A stretch of 52,349 bases of DNA, taken from Deltaproteobacteria bacterium (lineage in GTDB: Bacteria > Myxococcota_A > UBA796 > GCA-2862545). The translations under genes were made by a program, and so were the position numbers. Shown in pieces: positions 34-18,644 of this stretch. Location: NCBI GenBank assembly GCA_006226595.1, contig SBGP01000084.1:1-52349 (forward strand), given 5' to 3'. The notes beneath the pieces were generated by a model. The model had not been told where the DNA came from. It did not search any database and saw only the letters and a list, made by a program, of their open reading frames with translations. How positions within the stretch are numbered: the stretch's first letter is position 1; every line of letters starts with the position of its first letter.

Positions 34-1467
34 CTAGAGGAAGATGCCCGCGACCGCGCCGGTCATGCACGCTGCGATCACGCCGCCCCACATCGCTCGG
101 AAGCCAAGCTCGGCGAGCACGCCCATCTTCTTGGGAGCGATGCCGCCGATGCCGCCCAGCTGGATGCCGATCGACGCGAAGTTCGCGAAGCCGCACAGGG
201 CATAGGACGCGATGACCGCCCCGCGCTGCGAGATCATCGGCGTCTCGCCATTGATGAGGGCGCCGAGGTTGATGTACGCGATGAACTCGGTGAGCACGAT
301 CTTCTCGGCCAGCAGACGGCCGACGACCGTGGCCTCGCCGAAGGGCACGCCCATGACGAGTGCGATGGGCGCGAACAGCCAGCCGAAGATGCGCGCGAGC
401 GACATCGGCTCCGCGGCGACGCCCGGGGCGCAGGAGTAGCCGGCCGTCACGCCGCTCTCGCAGAACCCGATGGGCACGAGACCCACGGCGAAGTCGGCCA
501 TCGCGACCAGGGCGACGATGGCGATGAGCATGGCCGCGACATTGAGCGCGAGCTTCATGCCGTCGGCCGCGCCGTTCGCGGCGGCCTCGATGGCGTTGGT
601 CGCGGTCTGCTCGAACTCGACCTTCACGTCGCCGGCGGTGAGGCTCTCTTCGGTCTCGGGGACGATGACCTTGGCGATGGCCAAGGCCGCCGGGGCCGAG
701 ATGATGCTCGCGGTGACGAGGTGCCCGGCGATGTCCGGGATCGACGACAGGAACGAGACGTAGGCGCCGAGCACGCCACCCGCCACGGTGGCGAAGCCGC
801 CCGTCATCACCGCCATCAGCTCGCTGCGGGTCATGTTCGCGACGAAGGGCTTCACGAGGAGCGGGGCCTCGGTCTGACCGACGAAGATGTTGCCAGCGGC
901 GGACAGGCTCTCGGCCCCGGAGGTCCCGAGGGTGCGCATCATCACCGCGGCGAGCGCCTTGACGATCACCTGCATCACACCGAGGTGGTAGAGCAGGCTC
1001 ATCAGCGCCGAGAAGAACACGATGGTCGGCAGGATCGAGAACGCGAAGTTGTTGATCGCCGGCCCGAGCGTGCCCCCGTTGACCCACTGCACCGCGCCGT
1101 TGCCGGCCACGACGTCGGCCTCGCTGCCGACGAGGATGCCGTGAGGCTGGAAGCTGCCGAAGACGAAGTTCGTGCCTTCCTGCGAGAACGCGAGCAGCTG
1201 GTTCACGCCGCCATTGACGACGGTGAACACGAAGCTCGACACGACCGGCGAGAGCACGACAGCGCCGAAGACGAGCTGAAGACCGACACCCCAGGCCACC
1301 GGACGCCAGTTCACCGCCTTGCGGTTCTCGCTGATCAGCCAGGCCAGAGCCACGAGGATGAAGATGCCCGCGAAGCTCGTCAGGCGCTCGACGATGGTGG
1401 TCTCGTGGGGGATGAAGTTGCCGCCCTCCTGTGCGAAGGAGGCAGCGGCCAGAGCGAACCAGAGCAT
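34..1467 (-). CDS. NupC/CNT-family concentrative nucleoside transporter
   Basis: Inner-membrane cation-coupled nucleoside importer, 477 aa, a normal length for bacterial CNT proteins. Most of the chain is hydrophobic helices. The family core is easily read: GTSGAESLSAAGNIFVGQTE around residue 145-175, followed by MTRSELMAVMTGGFATVAGG, and near the C-terminus INGETPMISQRG and FASIGIQLGGIGG. These regions hold the nucleoside- and cation-binding residues of the family. The start is ATG at 1467 with a GAGGA ribosome site 8 bases upstream. It lies 128 bp downstream of thymidine phosphorylase on the same strand, so it probably supplies that enzyme with substrate. Which nucleosides it prefers cannot be told from the sequence. 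Confidence 0.93.
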   Translation of the reverse strand: MLWFALAAASFAQEGGNFIPHETTIVERLTSFAGIFILVALAWLISENRKAVNWRPVAWGVGLQLVFGAVVLSPVVSSFVFTVVNGGVNQLLAFSQEGTNFVFGSFQPHGILVGSEADVVAGNGAVQWVNGGTLGPAINNFAFSILPTIVFFSALMSLLYHLGVMQVIVKALAAVMMRTLGTSGAESLSAAGNIFVGQTEAPLLVKPFVANMTRSELMAVMTGGFATVAGGVLGAYVSFLSSIPDIAGHLVTASIISAPAALAIAKVIVPETEESLTAGDVKVEFEQTATNAIEAAANGAADGMKLALNVAAMLIAIVALVAMADFAVGLVPIGFCESGVTAGYSCAPGVAAEPMSLARIFGWLFAPIALVMGVPFGEATVVGRLLAEKIVLTEFIAYINLGALINGETPMISQRGAVIASYALCGFANFASIGIQLGGIGGIAPKKMGVLAELGFRAMWGGVIAACMTGAVAGIFL

Positions 1468-1595: not shown

Positions 1596-2861
1596 TCAGC
1601 CAGTGACCTCCTCGATCACCAACGGGAAGGCCTCGTCCGGGCCGTCGAACACGAAGGCCTGGTTCAGCGACTCGAGCGCGTTGCCGAGCCCGTGTCCGTC
1701 GCGATGGAGCACGCGAGCAAGCGCGTCCCCTGGCTTCACCTCGCTCCCGAGTGGGGCGAGGATCTCGACGCCGACTCCGAAGTCCACGGGATCTTCGGCG
1801 CGCAGGCGCCCGGCACCGAGATCGAAGGCGGCCCGGCCGACGGGCAGGGCGTGGAGCATGGTCACCCGGCCAGTGCGGTCGGCGCGCACGACGTGCTCGG
1901 TGCACCCACCGCCGAGCAGGCGCTCCGGCTCGTCGACGACCCGCGGATCGCCGCCCTGAGCCTCGACCATGCGCTGGAAGGCCTCGAGCGCCCGGCCGTC
2001 GTCGAGGGTCGCTTCGGCGGCGGGATCTCGGGCCAGCGCGAGGACCAGCTCGCGGAGCTCGGCGGGTCCCCCACCCTTCAGACAGTCGATGGCCTCGCGC
2101 ACCTCGTTCGCGTTGCCTACCGCCCGGCCGAGCGGGCGGTCCATGGCCGTGATCAGCGCGGTGCAGTCGACGCCGTTGGCGATCGCGGTGTCGACGAGTG
2201 TGCGCGCCTGGTGCTGTGCCTTGTCGAGGGTCTTCATGAACGCACCCGAGCCCACCTTGATGTCGAGGATCAGCGTGTGCACGCCCTCCGCGAGCTTCTT
2301 CGAGAGGATGGAGCCGCACACGAGCGGGGTGGAGGGCACGGTCTGCGTCTCGTTGCGGAGCGCGTAGAGGACCTTGTCTGCGGGGGCGACCTCACCGGTC
2401 TGGCCGCTGATGAAGGCGCCGGCGCTCGCGAGCACCTCGCGAAGCTCCTCCTCGCTGAGATCCGTGCGAAAGCCAGGGATCGCCTCGAGCTTGTCCAGCG
2501 TGCCACCGGTGTGGCCGAGGCCGCGTCCGGAGATCATCGGCACCCGCTTACCGAGCGCCGCCCACACCGGCGCAAGGACCAGCGACACCTTGTCGCCGAC
2601 CCCACCGGTGCTGTGCTTGTCGATGAGCTCGGGCCCCTCAGGCCACGTGAGCACGTCCCCGGAGTCGGTCATCTCGCGGGTGAGCGCCGCGGTCTCGGCG
2701 GGCGTCAGGCCGCGTGAGTAGGCCCACGCGAGCCAAGCGGCAGCCTGCGGCCGCGTCACGCTGCCGTCGACGATGCCGCGCACGAAGAAACGCAGCGCTT
2801 CTCGCGATTGCTCCTCGCCTTCGCGCATGGACTCGAGGATGCGGTCGATGGTCAGCTGCAC
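1596..2861 (-). CDS. deoA: Thymidine (pyrimidine-nucleoside) phosphorylase
   Basis: Cytosolic enzyme that splits thymidine or deoxyuridine with phosphate into base and 2-deoxyribose-1-phosphate. The 421-aa product has the family signature KHSTGGVGDKVSL, the SGRGLGHTGGTLDKLE glycine-rich phosphate region, and DIKVGSGAFMKT further on. The reading frame is open far upstream, but homology begins at the GTG at 2861 (product begins VQLTIDRILESMREGEEQ), which has GGAGG four bases upstream; I chose that start. The product could be the pyrimidine-nucleoside phosphorylase (Pdp) type rather than strict DeoA. It sits between the kinase and the nucleoside transporter, all leftward, consistent with nucleoside salvage. 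Phosphopentomutase, needed to link it to DeoC, is not in the window. Confidence 0.93.
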   Translation of the reverse strand: MQLTIDRILESMREGEEQSREALRFFVRGIVDGSVTRPQAAAWLAWAYSRGLTPAETAALTREMTDSGDVLTWPEGPELIDKHSTGGVGDKVSLVLAPVWAALGKRVPMISGRGLGHTGGTLDKLEAIPGFRTDLSEEELREVLASAGAFISGQTGEVAPADKVLYALRNETQTVPSTPLVCGSILSKKLAEGVHTLILDIKVGSGAFMKTLDKAQHQARTLVDTAIANGVDCTALITAMDRPLGRAVGNANEVREAIDCLKGGGPAELRELVLALARDPAAEATLDDGRALEAFQRMVEAQGGDPRVVDEPERLLGGGCTEHVVRADRTGRVTMLHALPVGRAAFDLGAGRLRAEDPVDFGVGVEILAPLGSEVKPGDALARVLHRDGHGLGNALESLNQAFVFDGPDEAFPLVIEEVTG

Positions 2862-2947: not shown

Positions 2948-4486
2948 CTAGCGCGTCGCGTTCGCGACGGCCTGGACCGTCTTCTCGCCGACGTACGGGG
3001 TCGCGCCAAAGGCCTCGATGCTCGCGAACGGGCGCTGCTCGAGGATGATGCTCACGCCGCGGCCGTACACGCCTGCCGCACGGACCGCGGCCTCGTCGGC
3101 GGTGTTCACCCAGGCCAGCGCGCGCGCAGCATGCTCGGCATCGAAGGACACGCCATCGACCACGGCGGCGGTGGCCGCCTGCGGAGCAGGCTTCGGAGCG
3201 GGCTTGGCCACCGGCACGGGAGCGGGCTTCTCGACGGGCGCGGGCTTCGGCGCGGGCTTCGAGATCGCGACCGGCGCAGGCTTCGGTGCCGCGACGGGAG
3301 CTGGCTTCGGTGCGGGTGCCGGAGCGGGTGCCGGAGCCACGGGCTCGACCTCGAGGGGCTCCGGTTCGACCGCGTCGATCAGCTCGTCGCGAAGCGGCAC
3401 GATCTGCAGCGGCACCGGCTTGGGAGCCTCGACGACCATCGTCGTCGGTGAGGTGTTCAGCGACTGGTTCAGCCCCACCGCGGCCAGGCACACCGACACG
3501 CCGACCGCGGCGATCGCGAGAGTGCCGAAGGCGCCGACCCACATCCACGGCGAGCCCAGACCTCCTCGCGGCGGCTTGGGCGGCTCCACCTGGCGAAAGG
3601 CCAGGCTCGACATGGACGCCGAGGCCCCGCTCCACTCCTTGAGGGCACGCGCCATCTCGGTCATGTCCGCGAAGCGCTGCGACGGCTCCTTGGACATCGC
3701 GCGCTGCACGATGGACTCGAGCACGGGGTCGACGAGGAGCTCGGGCGCGCGCTCGATCATCGGTGGGTAGGGCTCCTGGATGTGCGCCAGCGCCGTGGCC
3801 ATGGGCCCATCCCCGTGAAACGGCACCTTGCCGGTGAGCATCCGATACATCACCACGCCGAGGCTGTACTGGTCGGCGCGGTGGTCGATGTCGGTGCGTC
3901 CCCTGGCCTGCTCCGGCGCGACGTAGCTGGGCGTGCCCATGTACGTGCCGCTGCGCGTGACATCGACGTCGCCGCCCTTCACCAGGCCGAAGTCGAGCAC
4001 CTTGGGCTGCAGCTCGCCGTCGTCGTCCTCCACGAGGATGACGTTGGAAGGCTTCACGTCGCGGTGCACCAGGCCCTGGGCGTGCGCGTGGCGCAGCCCA
4101 CGGGCGATGCCGATCGCGAGGCGCGCCACCTCGTGCCCGTCGAGGGAGCGCCCCTTCATGTGCCGCTTGAGGGTCTGGCCTCGCAGCAGCTCCATGACCA
4201 CGAAGCGCTCGCCGTCGTCGGTGGTGCCGAAGTCGAAGACCGTCACCACATTCGGGTGCGACAGCTTGCTCGCCACCGCCGCCTCGCGGAGGAAGCGCGC
4301 GTTGAGCTCCTTGCTCGCCGCGGCCGAGAGGTCGGTGCGCAGCATCTTCACCGCGACCGCGCGCTCGAGCGGGTGCTGCACTGCCGCGTACACGTAGCCC
4401 GCGCCGCCAGCTCCAATGGCTTCGCGCAGCTCGTACTTCCCGGCGAGGAGCGTACCGATACGGTCGAGTGGAGAGGGGTTGCTCAC
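2948..4486 (-). CDS. Membrane Ser/Thr protein kinase with C-terminal ComEA-like helix-hairpin-helix domain
   Basis: 512-aa Hanks-type kinase. The catalytic domain spans about residues 18-285: glycine loop GAGGAGYV, Lys47 in VAVK, HRD at 141-143, DFG at 166-168, and APE-type VAPEQ at about 189-193. One transmembrane helix follows at about 313-338, then a Lys-Pro-Ala-Pro linker (383-435), so the C-terminus should be periplasmic. Residues about 455-510 read like the ComEA-type tandem helix-hairpin-helix fold (VNTADEAAVRAAG, then II-E-R-PF-SIEAF, then VGEKTVQAV). This fold binds DNA in competence proteins; its presence on a kinase is my inference from pattern. Start GTG at 4486, chosen because the kinase domain begins 17 residues later. 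It is divergent from deoC and upstream of deoA and nupC. Confidence 0.9.
   Translation of the reverse strand: MSNPSPLDRIGTLLAGKYELREAIGAGGAGYVYAAVQHPLERAVAVKMLRTDLSAAASKELNARFLREAAVASKLSHPNVVTVFDFGTTDDGERFVVMELLRGQTLKRHMKGRSLDGHEVARLAIGIARGLRHAHAQGLVHRDVKPSNVILVEDDDGELQPKVLDFGLVKGGDVDVTRSGTYMGTPSYVAPEQARGRTDIDHRADQYSLGVVMYRMLTGKVPFHGDGPMATALAHIQEPYPPMIERAPELLVDPVLESIVQRAMSKEPSQRFADMTEMARALKEWSGASASMSSLAFRQVEPPKPPRGGLGSPWMWVGAFGTLAIAAVGVSVCLAAVGLNQSLNTSPTTMVVEAPKPVPLQIVPLRDELIDAVEPEPLEVEPVAPAPAPAPAPKPAPVAAPKPAPVAISKPAPKPAPVEKPAPVPVAKPAPKPAPQAATAAVVDGVSFDAEHAARALAWVNTADEAAVRAAGVYGRGVSIILEQRPFASIEAFGATPYVGEKTVQAVANATR
3182..3340 (-). repeat. Pro/Ala/Lys-rich linker repeat inside the kinase gene
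   Basis: Codons for residues about 383-435 of the kinase encode irregular PAPAPAPKPAP and KPAPV units. It is a rigid, disordered-type spacer between the membrane helix and the C-terminal HhH domain. A DNA-level periodicity of GCGGGCTTCGG-like units is visible on the plus strand. Confidence 0.8.
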
Positions 4487-4582: not shown

Positions 4583-5503
4583 GTGACCCCCACCTTCTCG
4601 CCCGCAGCGGCCCGGGAATGGCGTTCGGTACGCGTCGACGACGCGACCGTGAACGCTCGCATCTCCCGAGCCCGCAAGCGCAGCATCAAGACCGAGTCCA
4701 AGGAGCGACTGCTCCGCCTGGCCCTGTCGATGATCGATCTCACCACTCTCGAGGGCGCCGACACGCCCGAGAAGGTGCGCTCCCTGTGCCGCAAGGCCGT
4801 CACCCCGCTCGCCGAGCGCCCGGACTTCCCGCATACCGCGGCCGTCTGCGTGTACCCGAACCTGGTGCCCATCGCCGCGGCGGCCCTCGGCCCGAACCGA
4901 GAGGTGAAGATCGCCTCGGTGGCCACGGGCTTCCCGTCCGGCCACGTGCCGCTGCGCCTCAAGGTCGCCGAGACCGAAGCCGCCGTGAAGGCGGGTGCCG
5001 ACGAGATCGACATGGTCATCGACCGTGGCGCGTTCCTCTCGGGCGACGACGAGAAGGTGTTCTCCGAGATCGCGGCGATCAAGGCCGCGTGCGGAGACGC
5101 CCGCCTCAAGGTCATCCTCGAGACCGGCGAGCTCGGCACGCTCGACAACGTCGCCGCAGCGAGCCGCCTCGCCATCCACGCCGGCGCCGACTTCATCAAG
5201 ACGTCGACCGGCAAGATCAGTCCGGCCGCGACCTTTCCGGTGGTGCTCGTGATGCTCGAAGCCATCCGAGAGCACTACCTCGAGACCGGCGTGATGATCG
5301 GCATGAAGCCCGCCGGCGGTATCCGCGACGCGAAGTCCGCGATGCACCACCTGGTGCTCGTCGCCGAGACCCTCGGTGCGGCGTGGATGACCCCCGAGTG
5401 GTACCGCTTCGGCGCCTCGAGCCTCGCCAACGACCTCCTCCGCCAACTCACGCGTCGCGAAGACGGCTACTACCAGTCGCCGCGCCGCTTCTCCGTCGAC
5501 TGA
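4583..5503 (+). CDS. deoC: Deoxyribose-phosphate aldolase
   Basis: Cleaves 2-deoxyribose-5-phosphate to acetaldehyde and glyceraldehyde-3-phosphate through a Schiff base. The 306-aa protein carries the catalytic set: Asp143 in EIDMVID, Schiff-base Lys206 in FIKTSTGK, and Lys242 in GMKPAGGIR, plus the conserved ATGFPSGH phosphate-site segment. It is longer than the roughly 220-260 aa short bacterial form, with an N-terminal extension of about 50 residues (INARISRARKRSIK-type region), as in the longer DeoC subgroup. GTG start at 4583 with GAGGA upstream. Its TGA overlaps by one base the ATG of the following aldehyde dehydrogenase, which would consume its acetaldehyde product. Confidence 0.96.
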   Translation: MTPTFSPAAAREWRSVRVDDATVNARISRARKRSIKTESKERLLRLALSMIDLTTLEGADTPEKVRSLCRKAVTPLAERPDFPHTAAVCVYPNLVPIAAAALGPNREVKIASVATGFPSGHVPLRLKVAETEAAVKAGADEIDMVIDRGAFLSGDDEKVFSEIAAIKAACGDARLKVILETGELGTLDNVAAASRLAIHAGADFIKTSTGKISPAATFPVVLVMLEAIREHYLETGVMIGMKPAGGIRDAKSAMHHLVLVAETLGAAWMTPEWYRFGASSLANDLLRQLTRREDGYYQSPRRFSVD

Positions 5504-16899: not shown

Positions 16900-18644
16900 C
16901 GGCGCTTGAACTCCTGTCGGTCGAAGTCCCAGTTCCAGCGCGTGGACTCGCCGGCAACGACCATGACCCGGAAGCGATGCGACAGGCCGTTCGGCGCAGT
17001 GATGCCGACAGTGTGCTCGCCGGCCGGCAGCTCGTGCTCGATCAGCGGCACCTTCCGGACGAAGCGCCCGTCGATGTACACCTCGCTGCCGGGAATCGTC
17101 GCCGACACGGTGATCACACCAGGTCCGGTCGCCGGCGCGGGCTCGGGTTCCGGCTCGGGGGCGGGCGCGACGACCGGGGCAGGCGCGGGGGCCGGCGTCG
17201 GCGCCACCACGACCACCTTCGTCGGCTCGGGAGCAGGAGGCTCGGGCACCTCTGCACGCACGACCTTGACCGGCTCGGGCAGCGCGGGCTTCGGAGCGGG
17301 CGCCGGTGCGGGCTTGGGCTTGGGCTTGACGGCCTGGACCGGCTCGGGCGCCGGAGCGGGTTCCTCGATGGCCTCCGGCTTGGGCGTCGGTGCTCCCGGA
17401 GGTGGACGGCTGGGCTCGATGACCTGCGAGACCTGGGGCGTGGCGCTCGTGCCCTCCTGGTCGAGCACCGTGACCAGCGCCGCGAGTCCAGCCACGAGCA
17501 GTAGCGCGAACATGCCCACGCCAGCGAGCGTCACCAGCCCGAGCAGCATGCCCCCACCGCGAGAACTCTCGGAGGTCGCCTCCTCGGTGGGCAGCACGAT
17601 GGAGTTGCCGGTCGCCGAGGTGTTGGCGGTGCCGGAGGTCGCGCCCGTCGCCGGGTTGTTGGTGCCGGTACCGCCGTAGCTGCGCATCGCCGGCACGGGA
17701 CGCCCCGCCTTGAGCGCCGAGACCATGTCGTAGAAGTGCGAGAGCTGCTCGCGCACGGTGACCGGGTCGGGAAGCAGCGACGACAACTCGCGCCCGAACT
17801 CGGCCGCGTTGCGGTAGCGGGCTGCAGGGTCGCGCTGAAGGGCGCGCACCAGCACGCCGACGAGCGGGCGGTACTCCGGGTCCAGCGTCGCGGCCATACG
17901 GGCCGCGTGGTCGTCGTCGAGCAGTCGCTTGACCGTCTCGGGGTCCTTCTTTGCGAACAGCGGCCCGCGACGGGCGAGCTCGAGGAGCACGGCGCCAAGC
18001 CCGAAGATGTCGGCTTGCGAGTTGACCACCCGCCCCGCCGCCTGCTCTGGCGCCATGTAGCCCCAGGTGCCGCGCACAGCGCCCTTGGACTCGGGCATCA
18101 GGTTCGCCAGCGCGATGCCGAAGTCGAGGATCTTCACCACCCCGTGGGGCGTGAGGATCAAGTTCGACGGCTTGATGTCGCGATGCACGAGGTCGAGCGG
18201 GTCTCCGTCCGGGTCCCGCACGGTGTGCGCGTAGTCCAGGCCATCGCATGCCTGACGACCGAGCTCGGCGATGACCTCGAGGGGCACCGGCTTGCCGAAC
18301 TGCTGGCACACGCGAATCGCCGTCGAGAGCGTGATGCCCTCGACGTACTCCATGACGATGAAGAAGCCGTTCTCGTCCTGGTCGAAGTCCTGGATCTGCA
18401 CCAGGTTCTGGTGGTGCATGGACGCGCCGACGCGCGCTTCGTTGATGAACAGGTCCCGGAACGTCTTCGACGACGCGTGCTGCGGAAGGATGATCTTGAT
18501 CGCCACCCGAGGCGAGACGCCGGCCAGGCTCTTGCGCCGCGCCTCGAACACCAGCGCCATTCCGCCCTTGGAGAGCGGACGCACGACCTCATAGCGCCCG
18601 ATGCGCTTGAGGTTCACTGGGAGGGGGGGCTGCTGAGACGCCAT
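16896..18644 (-). CDS. Membrane Ser/Thr protein kinase with C-terminal PEGA domain
   Basis: 582 aa. Kinase domain about 16-290 with glycine loop SKGGMALVFEA, Lys50 in VAIK, HRD at 154-156, DFG at 174-176 and MAPEQ at about 197-201. A Gly/Thr/Asn-rich segment (323-348) leads to one membrane helix (366-393), then a Pro/Ala/Glu linker. A periplasmic PEGA-type domain (about 505-575) closes with SEVYIDGRFVRKVPLIEHELPAG-like strands; PEGA modules are beta-sandwich, often cell-wall-associated. ATG start at 18644. The stop overlaps the receiver gene start. Its Gly loop is GGMAL rather than GxGxxG, but the rest of the site is complete. Confidence 0.93.
   Translation of the reverse strand: MASQQPPLPVNLKRIGRYEVVRPLSKGGMALVFEARRKSLAGVSPRVAIKIILPQHASSKTFRDLFINEARVGASMHHQNLVQIQDFDQDENGFFIVMEYVEGITLSTAIRVCQQFGKPVPLEVIAELGRQACDGLDYAHTVRDPDGDPLDLVHRDIKPSNLILTPHGVVKILDFGIALANLMPESKGAVRGTWGYMAPEQAAGRVVNSQADIFGLGAVLLELARRGPLFAKKDPETVKRLLDDDHAARMAATLDPEYRPLVGVLVRALQRDPAARYRNAAEFGRELSSLLPDPVTVREQLSHFYDMVSALKAGRPVPAMRSYGGTGTNNPATGATSGTANTSATGNSIVLPTEEATSESSRGGGMLLGLVTLAGVGMFALLLVAGLAALVTVLDQEGTSATPQVSQVIEPSRPPPGAPTPKPEAIEEPAPAPEPVQAVKPKPKPAPAPAPKPALPEPVKVVRAEVPEPPAPEPTKVVVVAPTPAPAPAPVVAPAPEPEPEPAPATGPGVITVSATIPGSEVYIDGRFVRKVPLIEHELPAGEHTVGITAPNGLSHRFRVMVVAGESTRWNWDFDRQEFKRR

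Follow-up and report, generated by a model that had tools for sequence, protein, structure and literature searches.

Deoxynucleoside salvage genes and a kinase with an unusual tail

The stretch of DNA analysed here (the window, 52,349 nucleotides of a deltaproteobacterial genome) encodes a Ser/Thr kinase next to genes for the uptake and breakdown of deoxynucleosides, which raises the question of what this kinase might sense. A sequence-only reading of the locus had noted a tandem helix-hairpin-helix (HhH) pattern like that of the DNA receptor ComEA at the C-terminus of the kinase, and had proposed that the protein senses DNA outside the cytoplasm and links this to the use of deoxynucleosides. 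Ser/Thr kinases are numerous in such bacteria, and the signals of nearly all of them are unknown; a well-folded outer domain combined with a conserved residue pair and an operon partner offers a concrete, testable ligand and pathway. The answer best supported by our analysis is a receptor kinase that appears to be specific to one order and has a putative ligand-binding HhH domain on the outside; in the family of the window (f1) it would have been recruited into a deo operon to tune deoxynucleoside salvage.

Domain architecture and predicted topology of the kinase

The kinase gene begins with a GTG start codon, and the features of its product and of the flanking genes are collected in Table 1. 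The protein scores 153.9 bits against the Pfam Pkinase model, for which the cut-off is 31.7 bits, and has the catalytic Lys and the HRD, DFG and APE motifs of Hanks-type Ser/Thr kinases all intact. As basic residues (KPPRGG) precede its one hydrophobic segment (about residues 317-340), the predicted topology places the kinase domain inside the cytoplasm and the C-terminus outside, which agrees with the periplasmic position supposed for the tail at the outset. The transmembrane segment is joined to the 68-residue tail by a linker of about 105 residues. By eye, several relatives carry a PEGA-like segment (SSEPSGAxVxxDxxxxGxTP) between the transmembrane helix and the HhH tail (L080, L081, L084, L088, L091 and other kinases of families f2, f4 and f6); the outer region of these proteins is variable, and the terminal HhH is retained. 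The source genome (7.2 Mb) contains at least 150 kinase matches, and a scan of its contigs with the whole kinase as query recovered generic kinases only. A second Ser/Thr kinase domain is encoded elsewhere in the window (17913-18593, minus strand).

Table 1. Features of the kinase and of the adjoining deo genes; positions are those of the window.
Feature	Position	Strand	Basis
HhH-tailed transmembrane Ser/Thr kinase, 512 aa	2948..4486	-	ORF and domain search
Hanks-type kinase domain, residues 18-273; AVAVK, HRDVKPSN, DFG and APEQ motifs	3668..4435	-	Pfam Pkinase E=7e-45 and motifs
Predicted single transmembrane helix, residues about 313-338	3473..3550	-	Hydropathy 2.2 over 19 residues
Pro/Ala/Lys-rich extracytoplasmic linker (predicted topology), residues 339-443	3158..3472	-	27% Pro; conservation poor
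C-terminal (HhH)2 domain, residues 445-512	2951..3154	-	Family profile, AF2, fold matches
HhH motif 1 (AAGVYGRGVSIIL); Gly 1 kept; Gly 2 and the Lys equivalent to ComEA K164/K166 lost	3035..3094	-	
HhH motif 2 (TPYVGEKTVQAV); invariant Gly; retains the Lys-Thr pair corresponding to ComEA K195/T196	2954..3019	-	
deoA-type pyrimidine nucleoside phosphorylase, directly downstream of the kinase	1596..2861	-	Glycos_transf_3, PYNP_C; GTG start inferred; synteny
nupC-type Na+-dependent nucleoside transporter	34..1467	-	Nucleos_tra2_N/C
deoC-type deoxyribose-phosphate aldolase, transcribed divergently to the kinase	4583..5503	+	Pfam DeoC E=7e-26

Relationship of the tail to the HhH fold

Taken singly, the tail of the window kinase is a borderline case. 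In isolation it matches HHH_3 (PF12836) with 13.1 bits (E=0.11; 12 bits in the genome scan), below the Pfam gathering cut-off of 27 bits. Likewise, a Pfam scan of the whole protein did not reveal an HhH domain, and a PDB search with the single tail sequence gave chance-level matches only. A family profile was therefore needed. Among 23 aligned homologous tails, 20 match HHH_3 (best E=3.5e-6), and a profile of all 23 retrieves from the PDB the ComEA-related protein 2DUY (4e-8) and ComEA itself (8DSS, 1e-6; 8DFK, 1.5e-4). The HhH similarity first seen by inspection thus holds for the family profile, whereas the tail alone remains sub-threshold.

The AF2 model of the tail (mean pLDDT 96.9) has five predicted helices (6-18, 21-26, 31-40, 46-50 and 57-67 in tail numbering) and shows the two packed HhH motifs of an (HhH)2 fold, matching the HhH of TEFM with a Z-score of 8.8 and 2DUY with 5.6. 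The E-values from Foldseek are weak (best 0.03), as expected for a domain of just 68 residues; the fold matches include the HhH proteins TEFM, 2DUY, PsbU and MUS81. The prediction thereby bears out the tandem HhH originally suggested for the C-terminus. A chance resemblance was ruled out by the family profile and the AF2 model together. As judged from the aligned family, the tail is related in fold to HhH domains, and the sequence of the window kinase is not a formal member of the HHH_3 family of Pfam.

Conservation and phyletic distribution

A tail search of 74 genomes found the domain on kinases from six families (f1-f6) of a single order. The window protein and the one from its congener (G001) share 82% identity in the tail, 71% in the kinase domain, 33% in the transmembrane segment and 52% in the linker; against the other genomes identity is 38-62% in the tail and 44-56% in the kinase domain, and the transmembrane segment and linker drift. 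As the identity of the tail is about equal to that of the kinase domain, the two appear to be under comparable constraint. In kinase-domain trees the tailed kinases group together, with a weak deepest branch (82/27). Three untailed rows fall inside this group; two of them (G036 and G042) run off contig ends, and the third (G014) is a kinase that genuinely lacks the tail and whose place in the tree is uncertain. In a sample of 379 genomes from the phylum, the 21 loci outside the order that were read by eye were all non-kinases, the weaker matches having been read in part, and within this sample the tailed kinase appears to be order-specific. One further ORF of 910 residues (L162, G284:C388:11776-11970) combines a P-loop ATPase-like stretch with a similar terminal HhH tail, which suggests that proteins of cytoplasmic type, too, may carry the module as a fusion.

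Nearest relatives and DNA-contact residues of the tail

The tail profile also matches secreted proteins that resemble lipoproteins and contain HhH repeats, both in the order and in the 379-genome sample, with scores of up to 64 bits as against 31-36 bits for the two best ComEA proteins. Kinase tails and lipoproteins have in common an N-terminal GVxFTxxEAxxxLxxxN extension (hhalign 99.4%, E 5.6e-21), and the tail, having both the HhH and this extension, falls within the secreted HhH-repeat family of the phylum. By these profile comparisons its nearest relatives are acidic secreted HhH lipoproteins and not ComEA itself. Mean net charge is +1.0 in the kinase tails versus -6.7 in the lipoprotein HhH domains, and none of 15 lipoprotein domains has the Lys of hairpin 2. 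The source genome encodes acidic HhH-repeat lipoproteins of this phylum-wide family at G000:C103:56112-56309 (L100), C85:62549-62755 (L099) and C1:147078-147281 (L101), and one of its HhH lipoproteins has a P/proprotein-convertase-like domain.

In ComEA of G. stearothermophilus, Lys166 of hairpin 1 (equivalent to K164 in B. subtilis and K63 in V. cholerae) is needed for DNA binding, which the K166A change abolishes in EMSA, and Lys195 and Thr196 of hairpin 2 make phosphate contacts in a docked model (PMC9747964). The hairpin-1 Lys is absent from all 23 kinase tails, its place being taken by Gln (11), Gly (10), Met (1) or Thr (1); an Arg lies one residue before this position in 16 of them. The hairpin glycines are only partly conserved, as had been observed for the window tail: the second Gly of hairpin 1 has given way to Tyr or Ala in 20/23 tails, and the first Gly of hairpin 2 is kept in just eight. 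Hairpin 2 nevertheless preserves its invariant Gly in 23/23 tails, its Lys in 20/23 and its Thr in 21/23, with Ser in the other two. By alignment, the kinase tails have kept one half of the DNA-contact set of ComEA and lost the other. Plain membership of ComEA, a dedicated uptake protein without an enzyme domain, was ruled out by the missing hairpin-1 Lys and the fusion to a kinase. The kinase tail is best read as a member of the secreted HhH family whose hairpin 2 would have stayed, or become again, more compatible with DNA.

The source genome also encodes a ComEA of its own (L001, G000:C94:55623-56099), which has a signal peptide and keeps the DNA-binding Lys in both of its HhH repeats, and a ComEC-type channel (L153, G000:C88:4234-5025). 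The presence of ComEC together with a normal two-domain ComEA suggests a capacity for DNA uptake, and outside DNA plausibly reaches the periplasm.

Gene neighborhoods of the tailed kinases

Pfam searches confirmed the gene order first read in the window, with deoC divergent from the kinase and deoA and nupC downstream of it. The tailed kinase is present in 9 of the 21 genomes of f1, and in all nine, which represent six genera, deoA lies directly downstream on the same strand. The stop codon of the kinase overlaps the start of deoA in three (ATGA in G006, TTGA in G012 and GTGA in G020), and the remaining gaps measure about 9 to 86 nt. Seven of the nine loci contain nupC, and deoC is found in five of the seven whose contig permitted judgement. 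This conserved co-directional adjacency, as in a deo salvage operon, is confined to f1: nowhere in families f2-f6 is the tailed kinase near deo genes. The expectation that relatives would keep the kinase beside deo genes is thus borne out within f1 and fails in the five other families. An order-wide deo link was ruled out, the neighbors in f2-f6 being dus, a 190-aa protein or unrelated genes. In f4-f6 the tailed kinase often lies near dus, which encodes tRNA-dihydrouridine synthase, and near the gene for a conserved protein of some 190 aa for which no Pfam match was found; these adjoin it in L079, L080, L081, L084 and L085. Other kinases whose genes lie no more than a few kb from deo genes have no HhH tail in their visible parts, some of them extending beyond contig or locus ends.

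In f1 genomes without the kinase, deoC and deoA are still divergent, which indicates that a deo locus already in place either gained the kinase or held on to it, and that the pair was then retained. The gap between deoC and deoA behaves as a gene-swapping site in f1: it may be empty (G002, L135) or hold a ClC-type channel (G013, L139), a deoB-like phosphopentomutase (G019, L141) or the HhH kinase, the channel and the deoB-like gene having been recognised by eye. Given the number of kinase matches in the genome, a single adjacency of a kinase and a deo gene is unremarkable, and it is the retention across six genera that constitutes evidence. As one ancestral event could account for the f1 kinases, the nine cases are not nine independent observations.

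Proposed function and alternative explanations

The explanation that we favor, with a rough probability of 0.4 for the whole, is a single-pass transmembrane receptor kinase that would bind nucleic acid mainly through hairpin 2 of a periplasmic HhH domain and would tune deoxynucleoside salvage. On the Pro-rich stalk the (HhH)2 domain, neutral to basic in charge, would be held out into the periplasm to bind the ligand, and ligand binding or clustering there would promote dimerisation of the kinase, which would then phosphorylate itself and its targets in the cytoplasm. In f1 the kinase gene would have been drawn in at the head of a kinase-deoA(-nupC) operon that runs divergently from deoC, and its product would most likely tune salvage through, for example, the activity of DeoA or NupC or the expression of the deo genes. 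Several lines of evidence point this way, namely the HhH profile and AF2 fold, the constraint on the tail, the Gly, Lys and Thr of hairpin 2, the charge of the domain, the synteny with deoA in f1 and the presence of ComEC and ComEA. Against it stand the loss of the hairpin-1 Lys and second Gly, the acidic lipoproteins as nearest relatives, the confinement of the deo link to f1, where the synteny may go back to one event, and the fact that HhH folds also mediate protein contacts, as in PsbU.

The likeliest single ligand class would be nucleic acid, as DNA or an oligonucleotide held mainly by hairpin 2. DNA is a plausible ligand of the tail and the leading single candidate, well below certainty, with a protein partner close behind in likelihood. 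Extracytoplasmic DNA sensing as originally proposed thus gains from the retained Lys-Thr of hairpin 2 and loses from the absence of the hairpin-1 Lys in every tail, which leaves a sensor of this kind as a candidate role. The most specific version, in which the kinase directly senses periplasmic DNA or oligonucleotides through the HhH domain and sets the uptake and breakdown of deoxynucleosides as a nutrient receptor for environmental DNA, is doubtful. We know of no kinase receptor for extracytoplasmic DNA, and the HhH kinase would be the first if DNA were its ligand; it would then link DNA scavenging to signalling.

The tail might instead be a protein-protein module that binds no nucleic acid, and either docks an envelope protein, such as a secreted HhH lipoprotein or the DNA-uptake or pilus machinery, or dimerises the kinase. 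This is a serious competitor, since the closest relatives of the tail are the lipoprotein repeats with the common extension, the hairpin-1 Lys used by ComEA is lost, and the photosystem II HhH protein PsbU is among the fold matches. However, the kinase tails keep the Lys-Thr of hairpin 2, are far less acidic than the lipoproteins, and in f1 are encoded in a probable operon with deoA that a protein partner alone does not explain. A general envelope-signal kinase that merely shares a transcript with deoA by historical accident, with neither DNA sensing nor nucleoside regulation, is improbable. The abundance of kinases in the genome, the location of such kinases elsewhere beyond f1, and the varied occupants of the deoC-deoA gap in kinase-free f1 genomes would fit an accident, but the tight or overlapping pair has been kept with every tailed kinase of f1, across six genera, even where deoC (missing in two of seven loci) or nupC (missing in two of nine) is not. 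Sensing of another envelope polyanion, such as lipopolysaccharide or polyphosphate, is very unlikely; the neutral-to-basic charge and conserved Lys-Thr would suit phosphate-rich ligands generally, but the deoA link favors nucleic acid, and to our knowledge there is no precedent for an HhH domain binding lipopolysaccharide or polyphosphate.

Comparison with known systems

Hanks kinases that span the membrane and carry a sensor domain on the outside are already known, and include those with PASTA, YARHG and other domains. The PASTA-type kinases (PknB/PrkC/StkP) resemble the window protein in their cytoplasmic Hanks kinase, one transmembrane helix and extracytoplasmic ligand-binding C-terminus, but Pfam finds no PASTA domain in it, and it scores 286 bits against the NCBIfam model PknB_PASTA, below the cut-off of 450. 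YARHG is likewise small, helical and extracytoplasmic, and occurs both on kinases and on secreted enzymes; going by its description it is a separate domain, with peptidoglycan as proposed ligand (PMC3355149). An HhH-tailed kinase was not found in the literature searched, most subscription papers lying outside its coverage, and is not mentioned in surveys of kinase architecture (PMC2877116, PMC1262709, PMC11032199). The suggestion of an undescribed kinase class thus holds for the architecture, which appears to be undescribed in these papers.

Among proteins without a kinase domain, the secreted HhH lipoproteins have the same domain and extension and are likewise extracytoplasmic, but often contain two or more repeats, are strongly acidic and lack the hairpin-2 Lys; some carry a proprotein-convertase P-like domain. 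Compared with ComEA (PDB 8DSS, 8DFK, 2DUY), the tail has an extra N-terminal helix, is fused to a kinase and is without the essential hairpin-1 Lys. The two are alike in their tandem HhH, in an extracytoplasmic location that is predicted for the kinase, and in a common NTA...EL...GI...R...PF...GxKT pattern in which the Lys-Thr of hairpin 2 is retained.
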